The notes under the pieces: model-generated
The model's database searches: none
Told to the model about the DNA's origin: nothing
Seen by the model: only the letters and a program-made list of their open reading frames with translations
Program-made: the position numbers and the translations under genes
In this document: positions 6,491 through 13,399 of the stretch, one piece after another
Numbering within the stretch: position 1 is the stretch's first letter
Layout of the letters: each line of letters opens with the position of its first letter
NCBI GenBank assembly: GCA_022071945.1
Contig: JAJVIN010000031.1
Coordinates: forward strand, 1 to 61,226
Origin: Thermoanaerobaculia bacterium
Lineage (GTDB): Bacteria > Acidobacteriota > Thermoanaerobaculia > UBA5066
Length of the DNA: 61,226 nucleotides
Direction: 5' to 3'

Positions 6491-8284
6491 TCACTGGAGG
6501 TAGCCGAGGGATTTCAGGTTCTCGATGTACTCCCTGGAGTCGAGCTCGACCGTCCTTGCCCGCTCGGGTTCACCCCAGCTCCCGACCCATCTCACATCCT
6601 CCGGTCCCTCGAGGAGCCCCGGTATCGGACGGCCGGCCGCGGCACGAGACGCCGGCACCCCGAGAACGTGGAGAACCGTCGGCAGGATGTCCTCTGGCTT
6701 CACCTGCCCTCCCCTCGCTCCCGCGCGAACGAGCCGGCCCGCCAGCACCACACGGCCCGAGGAGCTCTGCCTGCCTCCGTCGAGGATGAGGATCGTCAGA
6801 TCGACATCGGCCGCGAGGGCTTCGCCGGTGTGGTTCCGGATCCGTTCCGCTCGCGTGATCAGAGCGCGGGCCAGGGCGGAACGCTCTTCCGTGGACCGGG
6901 ATGGCTCCGCCAGGGCCGTCGTGAGAATGTCCAGACCCGGCAGATAGACGAGGGAAAGGCGGGGGGATCCCTTCTTCCTCAGATACGTCGAGGCCGCCAT
7001 TGCGAAGGAGTCGATGCCAGAAGCCTCCGAAATCAGCCGTTCGAGGTCGCGAGCGGGCGCCGGAGCGGGGCGGAACGCCTCGGTCACGGCGCGGAGATCC
7101 GCCTCCGGCCACCCTTCCCCGGTCAGACTTCCCCGGTCTCGTGCCGCAAAAAAGAGGTGATTCGACAGGACCGTCGCCCCGCCCGGGCTGACGGGATAGC
7201 TCGTCCACCAGTTCACGGTCACCGAGGGAATCCCGGCTCTCTGAGCGATTTCCCAGGCGGCGGGGACCCTGCGGGCCGCCGATGTGGCCGTCTCGCGCCG
7301 GGCCATCCCAAGCGCTGGCAGGAGCCTCGTCAGGTAGAGGGCCGAGGCCGGGCCGGGCTGTACCGGCTTGGAGACGCCTCGCAACCGGACCAGATCGATA
7401 GCTCCGATCCCATGCTTTCTGGGAGTCTCGGCGGTCACGATCGAGGTCCAGAACGCGGCCGGGTCGCGGCGCTCCTTGGAGTACGAAAGCACGACGGCAT
7501 CCGCCGGGAAGCGAACGGGTGTGTCGAAGAGCTCATCGGCCCAGCCATCCACGCCCATGATCTGAACCCGCGCCTTCGAGGGCCTGACGAGAAGCGGCTC
7601 GGCTGCCGGCGGCTCCTCCGGACGCCCGGCCGCCAGGGCCGCCAGGATCACCCCGATGGAGAGGACGGAAGCGCTGATGATCCCGGTCCGGCGGTGTCTT
7701 CCCAGGAGGTTCTTCCCGGCCGTCAGAGCCATCGTCAGGCTGAGGCTTCTCGCGATTCGCACGGCGAGAAAGACCAGAAGACCCGTCGAAGCCAGGATGG
7801 CGGCTGCGGCCCACGCTCCTCCCTGCCGGAGCGCAGGGAGGGCAGCGGTGGCGCCCAGCAACCCGGCCAGAAGGCCGAACACCACTCCGAGCTCGGTCGG
7901 CACGGCATCGCTGTCGCGCCTCAACCGCAAGAGGGACCAGGCGGCGAAGAGCAGGATGCCAACCCCGAGCAAGGCCGCCAGGCCCGACCCGAGAAGGAGC
8001 CAGAGGAAGAGAATCGCCGTGCCGGAAGGTCCGAGCCGGGAAAAGGCGGCGCGGGACACCGTCTCGGCAACGGCCAGCGCCAGGGCCAGGAGCGCGCTGG
8101 CGATGATGGCGGCCCGCACCACGCCCCTCGTCCGGGTGCGAGCGGCGACGACGCCCTTCAGAACCGTGCCCTCGAAGCCCCGGTCCAGATAACCGCGCGC
8201 CCGGAGACGCTCGCGCGCCTCCGCGAGGCTCATCGGCGCGGGCTCTTGCGAGGGTGAGGGCTCCTTTTCCTCTTCCTGATTCAC
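6491..8284 (-). CDS. Membrane protein with degenerate alkaline-phosphatase-fold domain
   Basis: 597 aa. An acidic N-terminal segment is followed by about five transmembrane helices (residues roughly 55-215; AAIIASALLALALAVAE, AILFLWLLLGSGLAALLG, LGVVFGLLAGLLGATAAL, AAAILASTGLLVFLAV, GIISASVLSIGVILAAL). The remaining soluble part resembles the type I phosphodiesterase/sulfatase superfamily: MGVDGWADEL near the first metal site, FWTSIVTAETPRKHGI for the nucleophile strand, VYLPGLDILTTAL, and the closing NLKSLGYLQ tail seen in many sulfatase-like proteins. The later D-H-G metal motif is ILILDGGRQ, so the second metal site looks lost and it may be a pseudoenzyme. It is 10 nt downstream of the polyprenyl synthase and likely cotranscribed with it. 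Confidence 0.72.
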   Translation of the reverse strand: MNQEEEKEPSPSQEPAPMSLAEARERLRARGYLDRGFEGTVLKGVVAARTRTRGVVRAAIIASALLALALAVAETVSRAAFSRLGPSGTAILFLWLLLGSGLAALLGVGILLFAAWSLLRLRRDSDAVPTELGVVFGLLAGLLGATAALPALRQGGAWAAAAILASTGLLVFLAVRIARSLSLTMALTAGKNLLGRHRRTGIISASVLSIGVILAALAAGRPEEPPAAEPLLVRPSKARVQIMGVDGWADELFDTPVRFPADAVVLSYSKERRDPAAFWTSIVTAETPRKHGIGAIDLVRLRGVSKPVQPGPASALYLTRLLPALGMARRETATSAARRVPAAWEIAQRAGIPSVTVNWWTSYPVSPGGATVLSNHLFFAARDRGSLTGEGWPEADLRAVTEAFRPAPAPARDLERLISEASGIDSFAMAASTYLRKKGSPRLSLVYLPGLDILTTALAEPSRSTEERSALARALITRAERIRNHTGEALAADVDLTILILDGGRQSSSGRVVLAGRLVRAGARGGQVKPEDILPTVLHVLGVPASRAAAGRPIPGLLEGPEDVRWVGSWGEPERARTVELDSREYIENLKSLGYLQ

Positions 8285-8294
8285 GGCCTTCCCC

Positions 8295-9200
8295 TCATGT
8301 GCTCCGATCTCTCAGGAAGAGGGCGAACTCGACGAGCCGCTCAGCCCGGCTCCCGAAGACTCCGATCGCCTCCACGGCGTGCGCGGAAAGCTCGTGGACG
8401 AGCTGGCGGGCTCCCTCGGCGCCGAGGTGGCGGGTGAAGGTCGGCACCGGGGCCCGGCGGGATGACTTCCCGGTCTCGGAGTCGTCCTTCTTTTCGAGCA
8501 GATCGTCGACGATCTGGAAGGCCAGCCCGATGTTGCGGGCATACGAGCGGACCGCGCCGAGCTCCTTCTCGCGAGCGTGGCCGAGAACCGCGCCAAACTC
8601 CGCGCTCGCCACGAAGAGCGCTCCGGTCTTGCGGGCATGAATCGTCTCGAGACGCTCGAACGTGGCCTCTCCTTCCCCCGTCCGCAGGTCGAGGGCCTGG
8701 CCCGACGACAGCCCGGCCACGCCGCAAGCATCGGCGAGCCGCGCGACGAGATCGAGGGCCAGCGAAGGAGAGATGGCCGCGCGCGGAGCCCCCCTGAGTG
8801 CTGCCTCGGAGAGAACGCCGAACGCCCGCGTCAGGAGCGTGACCGCCGCGAGGATGGCCATGTCCTCACCGTGTACCGTGTGGAGGGCCGGACGGCCGCG
8901 CCTGAGGACGGCATCGTCCATCGCTGGGAGATCATCCAGGACGAGGGAGGCCGCGTGCACCATCTCGACCGCGCAGGCCGGATCGAGCAAGAGGGCCTCC
9001 CTGGCGCGAAAGAGCTCCCCCGTGAGGAAGACGAGAGCGGGACGGACGCGCTTGCCCGGTGAGAGCAGGGCTTCCCGCGCGGCGGGCGGCAGGGCGTCCA
9101 GGGGATCCATGCCGGCGCCCGGAGGCGGAGTGAGCAGGTCCGGCAGTCTCCGGTCGACGGAACCGCGAACATCTGAAAGGAACCCCAAGAGCCGGTTCAT
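8295..9200 (-). CDS. Polyprenyl (farnesyl/geranylgeranyl) diphosphate synthase
   Basis: A trans-isoprenyl diphosphate synthase of 301 aa that condenses IPP with allylic diphosphates in the cytosol. The FARM motif is DDLPAMDD at residues 89-96, and GKRVRPAL (49-56) is the substrate-binding element. The second Asp-rich motif is QIVDDLLEKKDD (residues 229-240), where the usual fifth residue Asp is Glu. Chain length (C15, C20 or longer) cannot be assigned from motifs. It is divergent from the chemoreceptor fusion across a GC-rich 52-nt gap and immediately upstream of the phosphatase-fold membrane protein. Confidence 0.93.
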   Translation of the reverse strand: MNRLLGFLSDVRGSVDRRLPDLLTPPPGAGMDPLDALPPAAREALLSPGKRVRPALVFLTGELFRAREALLLDPACAVEMVHAASLVLDDLPAMDDAVLRRGRPALHTVHGEDMAILAAVTLLTRAFGVLSEAALRGAPRAAISPSLALDLVARLADACGVAGLSSGQALDLRTGEGEATFERLETIHARKTGALFVASAEFGAVLGHAREKELGAVRSYARNIGLAFQIVDDLLEKKDDSETGKSSRRAPVPTFTRHLGAEGARQLVHELSAHAVEAIGVFGSRAERLVEFALFLRDRST

Positions 9201-9252: not shown

Positions 9253-12200
9253 ATGTCTCCCGTCAGAACGAACGAGAAGGCACGCCGTCCCGGAGGCTTG
9301 CTGATCGCCCTGCCTCCCGTGATCGTGGCCGCCGCTTTCGGCCTGCTCTCACTCGACGCCTCCCCGACGAGACTCCGCATCCTCATCATCGGCGCCCTGA
9401 CGGCCGCGGCCGTCGCGGCCGTGAACATCCTCGTCATGGGACGAGAGCAGCGCGCCCGGGACGCGCTGAAGGACGCCCTTCACCGGACGGCAGCCGGCGA
9501 CTTGACCCTCTCTCGCCGCGAGCTGCGCAGAACCGGCGATCCGGAGCTCTCGCGCGCCCTTCACGGCCTGCTGGTCGGCATGGAGCGGATCCTGACCTCC
9601 TTCGTCCGAATGTCCGAGGCCGTTTCCGGCGTGGCCAGGGAGCTCTCTCTCAGGGGCCGGGACCTCTCACGCGCGGCGGTCGTCCAGACGAGACGCGCCG
9701 AGGAGACCGCCCTTTCGATCGAGCGGACGGACAGCGCGATCAATTCCTTGAAGGTCGCGATGGAGACGCTCTCTGCCGCCACCGAGAACGCCAGCTCCTC
9801 GATTCACGAGATGTCGGCCTCGATCACCGAGGTCTCGCGCAGCGCCTCCGGCCTGAGGAACTTCGTCGACGAGACATCGCTCTCGCTCAACCAGATGCTG
9901 CAGAGCCTCGGCGAGGTCTCGCGCGCGGTCGGCAACGTCGCCCGCCTCGCAGAGGAGACGGCGCGCGCGACCTCCTCGATCAAGGAAGCCACCGAGGACA
10001 CAGACCGGCAGACCCGGACGGCCGCCCGGCTCGCCGAGCGCGTCACGGCCGCCACGCATGCCGGCAAGGTCGCGGTGAGCGGCACGGTCCAGGGGATCAA
10101 TGCCATCCGGCAGACCGTCTCCGGCGCGGCCGAGGCCGCGGCCATCCTGGCCGAGCGCTCGGAGAGGATCGGCGAGATCCTCAGGGTCATCGAGGAAATC
10201 GCCGGAGAAACGAATCTCCTGGCGCTCAACGCCTCCATCATCGCCGCGCAGGCGGGCGAGAGCGGGCGCGCCTTCTCGACTCTCGCCATCGATATCCGGG
10301 ACCTCTCGGAACGGACCGCTCTCTCGACCGAGGAAGTCCGGAGTCTCGTCACGGCGGTGGACGAGGGCGTGCGGGACGTTCGAAAACTCCTTCTGGAGGC
10401 CAGAAACCGAACCGAGGAAGGCGTGGAGCTCGTCCAGACGGCGGACGGCACACTCGACGACATCCTCGAGCTCTCGGCCGAGTCGAAAAAGGCTTCCGAG
10501 GGCATCGCCAGCTCGGCCGCGATGCAAGCCAACGACGTCGCCCGAGTCTCGGAGGCCTCGACCAGGGTCTCCGAGGAAGTCGACCGGATCTTCCGCGCCA
10601 CCGAGGGACACGTCCAGACCGCGGAGGCCGTGGTCTCGAAGGCCGAGCGCGTCAAGGAGCTGACCGAGCAGCTCTCGCGCGCCATGGAGGAGCAGGCGAC
10701 CGGAGGAACCCTCCTCCTGCAGACGATGAGCAACATCTCCTCGACCACGGGCCGGATCTCCCTGGCGACGACGACGCTGAGAGAAGGATCGGCCTCGGTC
10801 GTCCGGTCGATGGAGGGGATCCGCGAGGCCACGGCCCAGAACGAGTACGCCGCCAGCGCGATGAACCAGACGGCCCTCGCTCTCGAGCAGGAAGCGCTGT
10901 CCTTAAACGCCCGCTCGTCCGTCTTCCGGTTCCCGTCCGCGGCCCCCGGAGGCAGGATCCGGGCCGCGCTGCGCTACCTGAACGAAGAGGACTACGACCC
11001 CGCTTTCTCTCAGACCGTGCCTCACGCCATCCTCGTCAAGACGTGGGGGGAGAGCCTCGTCCGGTTCGCTGAGGGAACTCGCGTTCTCCCCGAGCTCGCG
11101 GAACGCTGGGAAGTCGACTCGACCGGAACGCTCTTCACGTTCCACCTTCGCAGGGGCGTCCGCTTTCACGACGGACTCCTCCTCAGCTCGACCGACGTCA
11201 AGAACACCCTCGAGCGCTTTCTCTCGCCCGCCCTCGGGGCCCTTCTGGCGGGGCTCTTCGAGGCGATCGAGGGGGCACCCGAGTTCCTGGTCGGCAACAC
11301 CACATCGATACCCGGCATCGAGACGCCCGATCCCTCCACGGTGCGGTTCCGGTTGAGCCGCCCCCTCCCCTTCTTCCTGCACCTCTTGACGCTTCCCGAC
11401 ATCTCGATTCTCCCGCCGTCCCTCGTCAACGACCGGAGCCGGGCACGCCTGTCGCCCTGCGGGACGGGACCGTTCGTCGTCAAGGACCTCAGATTCGGAA
11501 AAGCCGCGCGATTCGACCGGTTCGATTCCTACTGGGACCGTTCCCACGTCGCCCTGGACGGGGTCGATCTCGACCTGACGGAAGACTCGGAGGCCGGCGT
11601 CTTTCAACGGTTCCTCGACGGCCAGCTCGACGTCATCTGGGACATCCCGATCTCGCAAGCCGCTCGCCTGTCGACCGATCCCCAGTGGCGCGCCTACATC
11701 GATTCCACGGTCCAGCTGCACACGTCGTTCGTCGTCCTCAGGTGCGACCGCGCCCCCCTGAACGATCCGCGTCTCAGGCGGGCCCTCAACCACGCGGTCG
11801 ACAGGAACGAGCTGAACCAGAAGCTCTTTTCGGGCTTGACGGTCGTGGCCTCATCGATCCTCCCGCCTCACCTGCTGGGCCACGACTCCAACCTCAGACC
11901 CCTGAGGTACGACCCGGAGGAGTCCAGGCGCCTGATGGCGGAGGCTGGATTCAAGGACGGCATGAATCTCGTGGCCTGGATGACGCCGACCGACGTCACG
12001 GATCCGATGAATCCCATGAAGGGAATCGCCGCGATGCTCGAAAAGGCGGGTGTCAAGGTCGCTATCGAGATCCTGAGCGGCGAGGAGATGAGCGCGAGGC
12101 GCAAGCGCGGAGAGTGGCCTCACCTTCGCCTCTCGCGCTGGTTCGCGGACTTCCCGGACCCGGACTCGTTCTTCAACTCCCTCTTCTACTCGAAGTCGGA

Positions 12201-12450
12201 AGACGTTGCGGAGTTCGGATTCAGCAATCCCGAGATCGACCGGCTGGTCGAGAGGGGCGCCCGCACCTCGGACACGAGGGAGCGCGAACTCATCTACCGG
12301 GAGCTGAATCGCCGGATCCAGCACGAGGCGCCGGCGATCTTCCTGTTTCACAACCGCGGGTTCGTCCTGCATGCCCCGAAGGTCCGCGGCGTGAGGGCCT
12401 TTCTCCTGCCTCCGCCCGTGAGGTGGGCCGACCTGTCCTTCGAGGTGTGA
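9253..12450 (+). CDS. Chemoreceptor-ABC substrate-binding protein fusion (MCP + SBP_bac_5)
   Basis: A 1065-aa protein with three parts. Two hydrophobic helices (about 15-33 and 41-62) are joined by only a few residues, with basic flanks on both outer sides. An MCP signalling coiled coil spans roughly 70-555; its hairpin tip reads ETNLLALNASIIAAQAGE near 320, close to the consensus but with Ile in place of the usual Glu after NAS. From about 566 to the end is a family 5 peptide/nickel-binding domain (LAERWEVDSTGTLFTFHLRR, GVRFHDG, NHAVDRNELNQ). By the positive-inside rule the binding domain would be cytoplasmic, unlike normal periplasmic SBPs. No signal peptide is seen and there is no adjacent Opp/Dpp permease. 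Function is inferred as sensing or scaffolding; ligand unknown. Confidence 0.9.
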   Translation: MSPVRTNEKARRPGGLLIALPPVIVAAAFGLLSLDASPTRLRILIIGALTAAAVAAVNILVMGREQRARDALKDALHRTAAGDLTLSRRELRRTGDPELSRALHGLLVGMERILTSFVRMSEAVSGVARELSLRGRDLSRAAVVQTRRAEETALSIERTDSAINSLKVAMETLSAATENASSSIHEMSASITEVSRSASGLRNFVDETSLSLNQMLQSLGEVSRAVGNVARLAEETARATSSIKEATEDTDRQTRTAARLAERVTAATHAGKVAVSGTVQGINAIRQTVSGAAEAAAILAERSERIGEILRVIEEIAGETNLLALNASIIAAQAGESGRAFSTLAIDIRDLSERTALSTEEVRSLVTAVDEGVRDVRKLLLEARNRTEEGVELVQTADGTLDDILELSAESKKASEGIASSAAMQANDVARVSEASTRVSEEVDRIFRATEGHVQTAEAVVSKAERVKELTEQLSRAMEEQATGGTLLLQTMSNISSTTGRISLATTTLREGSASVVRSMEGIREATAQNEYAASAMNQTALALEQEALSLNARSSVFRFPSAAPGGRIRAALRYLNEEDYDPAFSQTVPHAILVKTWGESLVRFAEGTRVLPELAERWEVDSTGTLFTFHLRRGVRFHDGLLLSSTDVKNTLERFLSPALGALLAGLFEAIEGAPEFLVGNTTSIPGIETPDPSTVRFRLSRPLPFFLHLLTLPDISILPPSLVNDRSRARLSPCGTGPFVVKDLRFGKAARFDRFDSYWDRSHVALDGVDLDLTEDSEAGVFQRFLDGQLDVIWDIPISQAARLSTDPQWRAYIDSTVQLHTSFVVLRCDRAPLNDPRLRRALNHAVDRNELNQKLFSGLTVVASSILPPHLLGHDSNLRPLRYDPEESRRLMAEAGFKDGMNLVAWMTPTDVTDPMNPMKGIAAMLEKAGVKVAIEILSGEEMSARRKRGEWPHLRLSRWFADFPDPDSFFNSLFYSKSEDVAEFGFSNPEIDRLVERGARTSDTRERELIYRELNRRIQHEAPAIFLFHNRGFVLHAPKVRGVRAFLLPPPVRWADLSFEV

Positions 12451-12492: not shown

Positions 12493-12834
12493 TCAGAAGC
12501 CCTCCAGGGCCTCCGCTTCGCTGGTGTAGACATCGAAGACCGTGATCAGCTGGGTCACGGTGAGGACGTCGTTGATCTTCTCGGGAAGGTTGGCCAGACG
12601 GAGTTTGGCCCCCTTGTTCGTCGCCGTCGTGTAGCACCCGACGAGTTCTCCGACGCCGGTCGAGTCGATCGTGGTGACTTCTTTCATGTTGATCAGGATC
12701 TTCTTCGCCCCGCCGGCCAGCGTCTGGTGAATCGCCTCCCGCATGTGGAGGTCGCCGGCTCCGATCGTGATCTTCCCCTTCAGGTCGAGGACCTTCACAT
12801 CGCCAGCGTCGCGGACGGTCACGTTCTTGTTCAT
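12493..12834 (-). CDS. Anti-sigma factor antagonist, STAS domain (RsbV/SpoIIAA-like)
   Basis: 113 aa, a single STAS domain. The phosphorylatable serine is in IDSTGVGEL (Ser 58), the signature site phosphorylated by RsbW/SpoIIAB-type kinases. The unphosphorylated protein normally binds the kinase and frees a sigma factor. The gene follows a cognate HATPase kinase at 12860 on the same strand with 25 nt between them, so they form a partner-switch pair. No sigma factor gene is adjacent, so the output is unknown; other such modules control secretion or cyclases instead of sigma factors. GAAAGGGAGCAAG upstream of the ATG gives a good ribosome-binding site. Confidence 0.93.
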   Translation of the reverse strand: MNKNVTVRDAGDVKVLDLKGKITIGAGDLHMREAIHQTLAGGAKKILINMKEVTTIDSTGVGELVGCYTTATNKGAKLRLANLPEKINDVLTVTQLITVFDVYTSEAEALEGF

Positions 12835-12859: not shown

Positions 12860-13300
12860 TCAGGGCTTCTTGTTCTTGAAATTCTTGGTCATGGTCACGA
12901 TGGTACCCCCGCCGCCGTCTCCGTTCTGAAACGTGACGAGATCCATGAACGTCTTCATGTAGAAGATGCCACGGCCGGACGGGCGAAGCTGATTCTCGGG
13001 AGCGAGGGGATCCGCGACGCTTCCGGAGTCGAACCCCGGACCCTCATCACCGACCCTGATGGTGATGTCATCCCCCTTGACGTCAAACGAGACCATCACG
13101 CGCTTTTCGGGATCCTGCCGATTCCCGTGCTTGATCGCGTTCGCGACAGCCTCGCGCAGGGCCATCCCGATCCAGTGCTCCATGTCGTTTTCGATGCCCG
13201 AGTTGCGGGAGACTTCTTCGAGAGCCGCCATCGCCAGTTCGATGTTCTCGTACCGGCTGGAAAGCCAGAGAACGACGGGGGACCGGGACGATTCTGTCAT
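12860..13300 (-). CDS. Anti-sigma factor serine kinase (RsbW-like HATPase)
   Basis: 146 aa from the ATG at 13300. The GHKL ATPase fold shows the N box as LREAVANAIKHGN, the G1 box as VGDEGPGFD and the G2 box as RPSGRGIFYMKTFMD. Members phosphorylate the STAS antagonist encoded just downstream and sequester a sigma factor. The frame continues upstream ten codons to a GTG at 13330; neither start has a clear ribosome-binding site, and 13300 is preferred for its ATG. It is divergent from the secreted HExxH protein. The pair follows directly after a chemoreceptor fusion on the opposite strand; a functional link is only suggested by position. Confidence 0.9.
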   Translation of the reverse strand: MTESSRSPVVLWLSSRYENIELAMAALEEVSRNSGIENDMEHWIGMALREAVANAIKHGNRQDPEKRVMVSFDVKGDDITIRVGDEGPGFDSGSVADPLAPENQLRPSGRGIFYMKTFMDLVTFQNGDGGGGTIVTMTKNFKNKKP

Positions 13301-13399
13301 GTTGGAAACCCCGGACGCGAGAACGCCCACAAGTCTTCACCGCTCGCCCCCTTTCAATCCCGGGGCCGGGCAATGCCGCCCTGCTAAGCTCTCGCCCCG

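Follow-up and report, generated by a model that had tools for sequence, protein, structure and literature searches.

Chemoreceptors usually sense the outside of the cell, where they are fed by transport solute-binding proteins (SBPs), and family 5 SBPs are normally extracytoplasmic. Family 5 domains (SBP_bac_5) are also known as the sensors of cytosolic regulators, namely SgrR and DsvR (PMC13060122), and in a survey SBP profiles matched sensor domains and cytosolic proteins as well (PMC9602780). For archaeal receptors, C-terminal ligand-binding domains and SBP_bac domains have been reported (PMC9680633). A literature search of open-licence papers yielded no description of an SBP_bac_5 domain at the C-terminus of an MCP.

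The window analysed here, a stretch of 61,226 nucleotides from a Thermoanaerobaculia bacterium, encodes a receptor that resembles several of these systems and departs from each. In common with the canonical MCPs Tsr and Tar (PF00015), it has a hairpin coiled coil, a conserved tip and a PF00015 match above the cut-off; unlike them, it has no periplasmic sensor, its sensor being C-terminal and predicted to be cytoplasmic, and it carries Ile330 and Gln333 at the tip, lacks an NWETF-type tail and has longer arms (218 + 222 residues). With Helicobacter pylori TlpD and archaeal class V receptors bearing a C-terminal ligand-binding domain (PMC9680633) it shares an intracellular sensor placed after the MCP coil, but that sensor is a 500-residue family 5 SBP domain, and most members of the family are anchored by a hairpin. 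SgrR and DsvR (HTH plus SBP_bac_5; PMC13060122) likewise use SBP_bac_5 as the sensor of a cytosolic regulator, whereas the output of the window receptor is an MCP coil, and the Pfam scan found no HTH in it. DppA, OppA and MppA (PF00496) agree with it in the full fold (Z about 35-38) and in the Asp that anchors an alpha-amino group; in contrast to them, the receptor has no signal peptide and no ABC partner that could be found, is fused to an MCP and does not keep DppA Arg355. Finally, proteins combining a kinase, AAA_16 and two SBP_bac_5 domains (L052, L119) belong to the same intracellular SBP group and share its W-x-A/G-D motif, but they pair a kinase output with two SBP domains where the window receptor has an MCP coil. 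The present analysis adds that the architecture is conserved across the phylum, that some versions are soluble, that the SBP domains group with those fused to kinases, that the amine anchor is retained and that a kinase partner can probably be named.

Domain architecture and the solute-binding domain

The receptor gene (9253..12450, + strand) is an uninterrupted open reading frame of 1065 codons without internal stop, supported by Pfam matches and full-length homologs, and its start codon matches that of close homologs. The encoded protein begins with a membrane hairpin of two helices, continues into a long MCP coiled coil and ends in a complete family 5 SBP domain. The initial annotation had proposed an MCP coiled coil with a C-terminal family 5 binding domain, and this was borne out within the one frame by PF00015 (MCPsignal) at residues 265-441 (102.5 bits against a cut-off of 34.6) and PF00496 (SBP_bac_5) at residues 611-981 (246.3 bits against 32.4). 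Judged by its MCP domain and tip, the protein is a chemoreceptor, and, because a signal peptide is missing from the sequence, it is not a transport SBP; among the flanking genes covered by the Pfam scan there are no ABC permease or ATPase genes. Between hairpin and coil, residues 62-117 (9436..9603, +) align as a HAMP-like connector with a GDL motif and gave no HAMP match in Pfam, while a short linker (10927..10953, +) ends in Gly566-Gly567, a pair invariant among the aligned homologs.

The SBP domain itself comprises residues 568-1065 (10954..12447, +). In the structure prediction that the initial annotation had suggested, the domain, modelled alone with 29 relatives, adopted a confident two-lobe DppA/OppA fold (pLDDT 93), which matched PDB entries with Z scores of 34-40 across 458-494 residues. 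The matches are family 5 SBPs and extend over the whole length of the domain; they include YliB (1uqw, Z 39.9), MppA (38.2) and DppA (37.3), and the nearest solved relatives by sequence are a Mesorhizobium peptide-binding protein, a Haemophilus heme/glutathione-binding protein and DppA. The full-length receptor model, at pLDDT 64, was too weak to place the coil relative to the SBP domain.

In DppA and OppA, the Asp numbered 408 in DppA binds the alpha-amino group of the ligand, and DppA Arg355 pairs with the ligand carboxylate. The receptor motif W963-F-A-D966 (12139..12150, +) is, by alignment, equivalent to the W405-D408 ligand anchor of DppA: W963 and D966 are invariant in all 39 aligned proteins, and D966 aligns with DppA D408, a position at which the charge-swapped DppA 8z1z_F has Arg. 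For Arg355, the receptor alignment holds no conserved equivalent, and the corresponding loop is of variable length, so that a ligand other than a free dipeptide is conceivable. The earlier idea of a peptide ligand is strengthened by the invariant D966; since D966 is kept and Arg355 is not, our best guess is a ligand that carries an amino group and differs from a free dipeptide. The variable loop and the unconserved Arg355, together with the fact that no ligand is known for the receptor, would also suit a domain that has lost small-ligand binding and persists as a scaffold or dimerisation module. Such a loss appears unlikely, given that the complete two-lobe fold is retained in the model and that the W963/D966 cleft motif is kept in 39 of 39 proteins and in the kinase fusions.

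These kinase fusions share a sensor type with the receptor, for which we favour a ligand-binding role. One of them is encoded in the same genome (L052:5516-11197, - strand, on G000:C1) as a 1893-residue protein with a Ser/Thr kinase, AAA_16 and two SBP_bac_5 domains, and no membrane helix was found in the kinase-SBP fusions of the own and related genomes. Long SBP-bearing proteins resembling that of L052 also occur at L119, L120, L122 and L123. A tree built from 55 SBP domains set the MCP-fused and kinase-fused domains apart from the secreted SBPs with support of 100/99, and the MCP-fused group within it had weak support (60/11); because the secreted SBPs sampled were those of this genome alone, a single origin of the MCP-fused and kinase-fused domains is suggested rather than shown. 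The internal domains carry the motif W-x-A/G-D-Y/F, the kinase fusions showing W-x-A/G-D wherever the site is covered, and the motif is absent from the secreted SBPs of this genome, most of which have a signal peptide or lipobox.

Hairpin tip and proposed chemosensory coupling

The N-arm of the coiled coil (9604..10260, +) and its C-arm (10261..10926, +), delimited by model and alignment, are constant in length: across the 39 aligned proteins, soluble and membrane-anchored alike, the former has 218 residues in all but two rows, where it has 219, and the latter 222. At the hairpin tip (residues 319-345; 10207..10287, +) the sequence reads NLLALNASIIAAQAGESGRAF. Most MCPs have Glu at the position of Ile330 and Arg at that of Gln333. 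In this family the tip pattern NLLALN..I..A.AGE..GR.F is conserved with E-to-I and R-to-Q at these two positions, Glu being found at position 330 in 0 of 39 homologs and Gln at 333 in 38 of 39. The replacement of a conserved Glu by Ile, to which the initial annotation had drawn attention, is indeed present and is not peculiar to the window protein: the Ile330/Gln333 combination is also found outside the family, at least in an ordinary MCP of genome G070 that possesses a periplasmic region, and this genome has the matching CheA. Since Ile330 runs through the family and recurs in an ordinary MCP, its reading as a defect or loss of function was rejected, and the Ile330/Gln333 pair is probably the signature of a receptor subclass. 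Neither the window protein nor the rest of its family f1 contains the strict methylation consensus; most members of the same-class family f8 have 2-3 sites, so adaptation may be lost in f1 or may differ from that in f8.

A candidate partner lies elsewhere in the genome. Contig C11 carries an operon for CheY, CheA, CheW, HEAT repeats, CheR and CheB and no MCP; the matching operon of genome G023 reads ribH, nusB, CheY, CheA, CheW, HEAT and CheR, and the operon is conserved in f8. At loci L034 and L041, a CheA/CheW/CheR/HEAT-repeat operon adjoins ribH-nusB, and in the genome of the window it has no MCP of its own. In that genome, a weak MCP-like match in a 396-residue frame (G000:C15:102293-102691) is present in related genomes too.

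Among 61 genomes of the class, the C11-type CheA and the receptor occur together in 21, singly in 2 and 2, and 36 have neither (Fisher p 5e-12, from a hand tally with no phylogenetic correction, in which some mismatches are incomplete or fragmented genomes), such that both are present in 21 of the 25 genomes that have either. Of the 32 genomes in the phylum sample that hold the receptor, three of which have partial copies, 26 have a CheA that scores 500 bits or more; among the 364 others, 17 do. Furthermore, CheW domains are present in all 23 receptor genomes of the class, and in genome G003 the C11-type CheA/CheW pair is the only one.

The immediate surroundings of the gene are less constant. 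A divergent polyprenyl synthetase (8295..9200, -), identified like the following genes by Pfam and neighbourhood comparison, is kept in f1, f8, f10 and f5 and conserved within the class only. A convergent STAS anti-anti-sigma-like gene (12493..12834, -) and an RsbW-like ATPase gene (12860..13330, -) are confined to f1. Further along, 6491-8284 (-) encodes a 597-residue protein, hydrophobic in its N-terminal region and weakly matching a phosphodiesterase, whose gene lies close to the receptor in several genomes of f1. In families f17 and f43 (L079, L066 and related loci), ACT-domain, DUF711 and RidA-like genes follow the receptor and RelA/SpoT is divergent in several, an association restricted to these two families. 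Because each neighbour is conserved in limited groups only, none of them explains the receptor, and the neighbourhood was set aside as a clue to function.

In none of the neighbourhoods examined do recognised che genes stand beside the receptor, which, together with the STAS/RsbW pair conserved next to it in its own family and the missing strict methylation sites there, could indicate an MCP-like protein that bypasses CheA and signals to another partner, for instance that very pair. We consider this improbable: the pair is lacking from the neighbourhood of other families, CheW domains accompany the receptor in 23 of 23 class genomes, the co-occurrence with one CheA type is strong, and an ordinary MCP with the same tip motif is found in a genome with that CheA type. 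Coupling to CheA is therefore retained as the preferred reading, and the orphan receptor most likely signals the presence of a cytosolic ligand of amino or peptide type to the receptor-less CheA/CheW/CheR/CheB operon. As to what lies downstream, no flagellin gene was found in the 61 class genomes, and the genome of the window has 8 PilT-family (ATPase) matches above the cut-off; type IV pili or another non-flagellar function are thus the probable output.

Predicted membrane topology and spread of the family

Two hydrophobic helices, residues 16-34 (9298..9354, +) and 43-61 (9379..9435, +), are recognised by hydropathy and modelled as helices; about 8 residues separate them and basic residues flank both, and a loop of this length leaves the membrane-form members no outside sensor. 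Hydropathy was scored with a simple window rather than a trained predictor, and by this measure most members carry the short hairpin, while in a few hairpin members helix 2 falls under the threshold and just helix 1 passes. Additionally, six loci in three families (f24: L068, L069 and L072; f34: L073; f76: L070 and L071) have neither a hydrophobic helix nor a signal peptide before the coil, and they keep the SBP domain and the same coil-arm lengths (218 + 222 residues). At L068 and L073 the open frame starts some 25-45 residues ahead of the HAMP-like region, so close that no helix is hidden by a wrong start.

With a two-helix hairpin or no helix at all, the SBP domain is predicted to be cytoplasmic, a placement that is well supported by sequence for both membrane and soluble forms and that would hold for the window protein. 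The cytoplasmic location proposed in the initial annotation is accordingly supported, the members showing a hairpin or zero helices instead of an odd number of spans. A periplasmic domain acting like a tethered transport SBP would agree with the usual extracytoplasmic location of family 5 SBPs, but it is very improbable: the helix number is even or zero, no signal peptide or lipobox precedes the domain although most other SBPs of the genome have one, and the domain follows an MCP coil that must itself be cytoplasmic for contact with CheA.

The receptor family, located by whole-genome search, is present in 23 genomes of the 61-genome class sample, most copies being full-length and the remainder interrupted by contig ends or a frame change. 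Identity to the window protein is 62-70% within f1 and 31-38% in f8, f10 and f5 of the same class. A pattern scan of genome contigs with the window protein gave just two partial single-domain matches, and no plasmid record matched at least 80% of the receptor length. When other genomes were surveyed for the same domain order, a check that the initial annotation had called for, full-length, single-frame MCP-SBP copies were found in 29 of 396 genomes of the phylum sample, one of which holds two. An assembly or frameshift artefact joining separate MCP and SBP genes can be dismissed, because the same junction recurs with constant spacing in these 29 of 396 genomes, spanning the own family, other families of the class and the wider phylum. 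Because the design recurs across the phylum, the receptor probably does sense something inside the cell.

Proposed mechanism and significance

Taken as a whole, the best explanation, which we hold to be somewhat probable, is a chemoreceptor with a cytoplasmic SBP sensor, coupled to CheA and having a non-flagellar output. In this model, the N-terminal hairpin, missing in some relatives, would serve as a membrane tether only, with no sensor outside, and sensing would fall to the DppA/OppA-type domain that follows the returning arm of the MCP hairpin. For ligand class, kinase coupling and output we infer the following: the cleft would bind a cytosolic ligand, probably a peptide, an amino-acid derivative or another amino-group compound, closing the two lobes; lobe closure would act through the short linker on coiled-coil packing and thereby change CheA activity at the tip; the kinase would likely be the CheA of the receptor-less CheY-CheA-CheW-HEAT-CheR-CheB operon; and the output would be non-flagellar, most likely type IV pili or another cellular function. 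More tentatively, and with slightly less than even confidence, the receptor may belong to a phylum clade of intracellular family 5 SBP sensors, fused to MCPs or to Ser/Thr kinase-ATPases, that informs chemosensory arrays and kinase signalling about a shared class of cytosolic amino-bearing ligands, such as peptides released by proteolysis or during recycling of the cell wall.

Because the coil is identical in length in the soluble and the membrane versions, C-terminal control of an MCP hairpin becomes directly testable. Here, a complete peptide-binding-type domain appears to be built into a receptor, inside the cell and phylum-wide, in organisms in which no flagellin was found, and such a receptor would connect the nutrient or cell-wall status inside the cell with chemosensory arrays.
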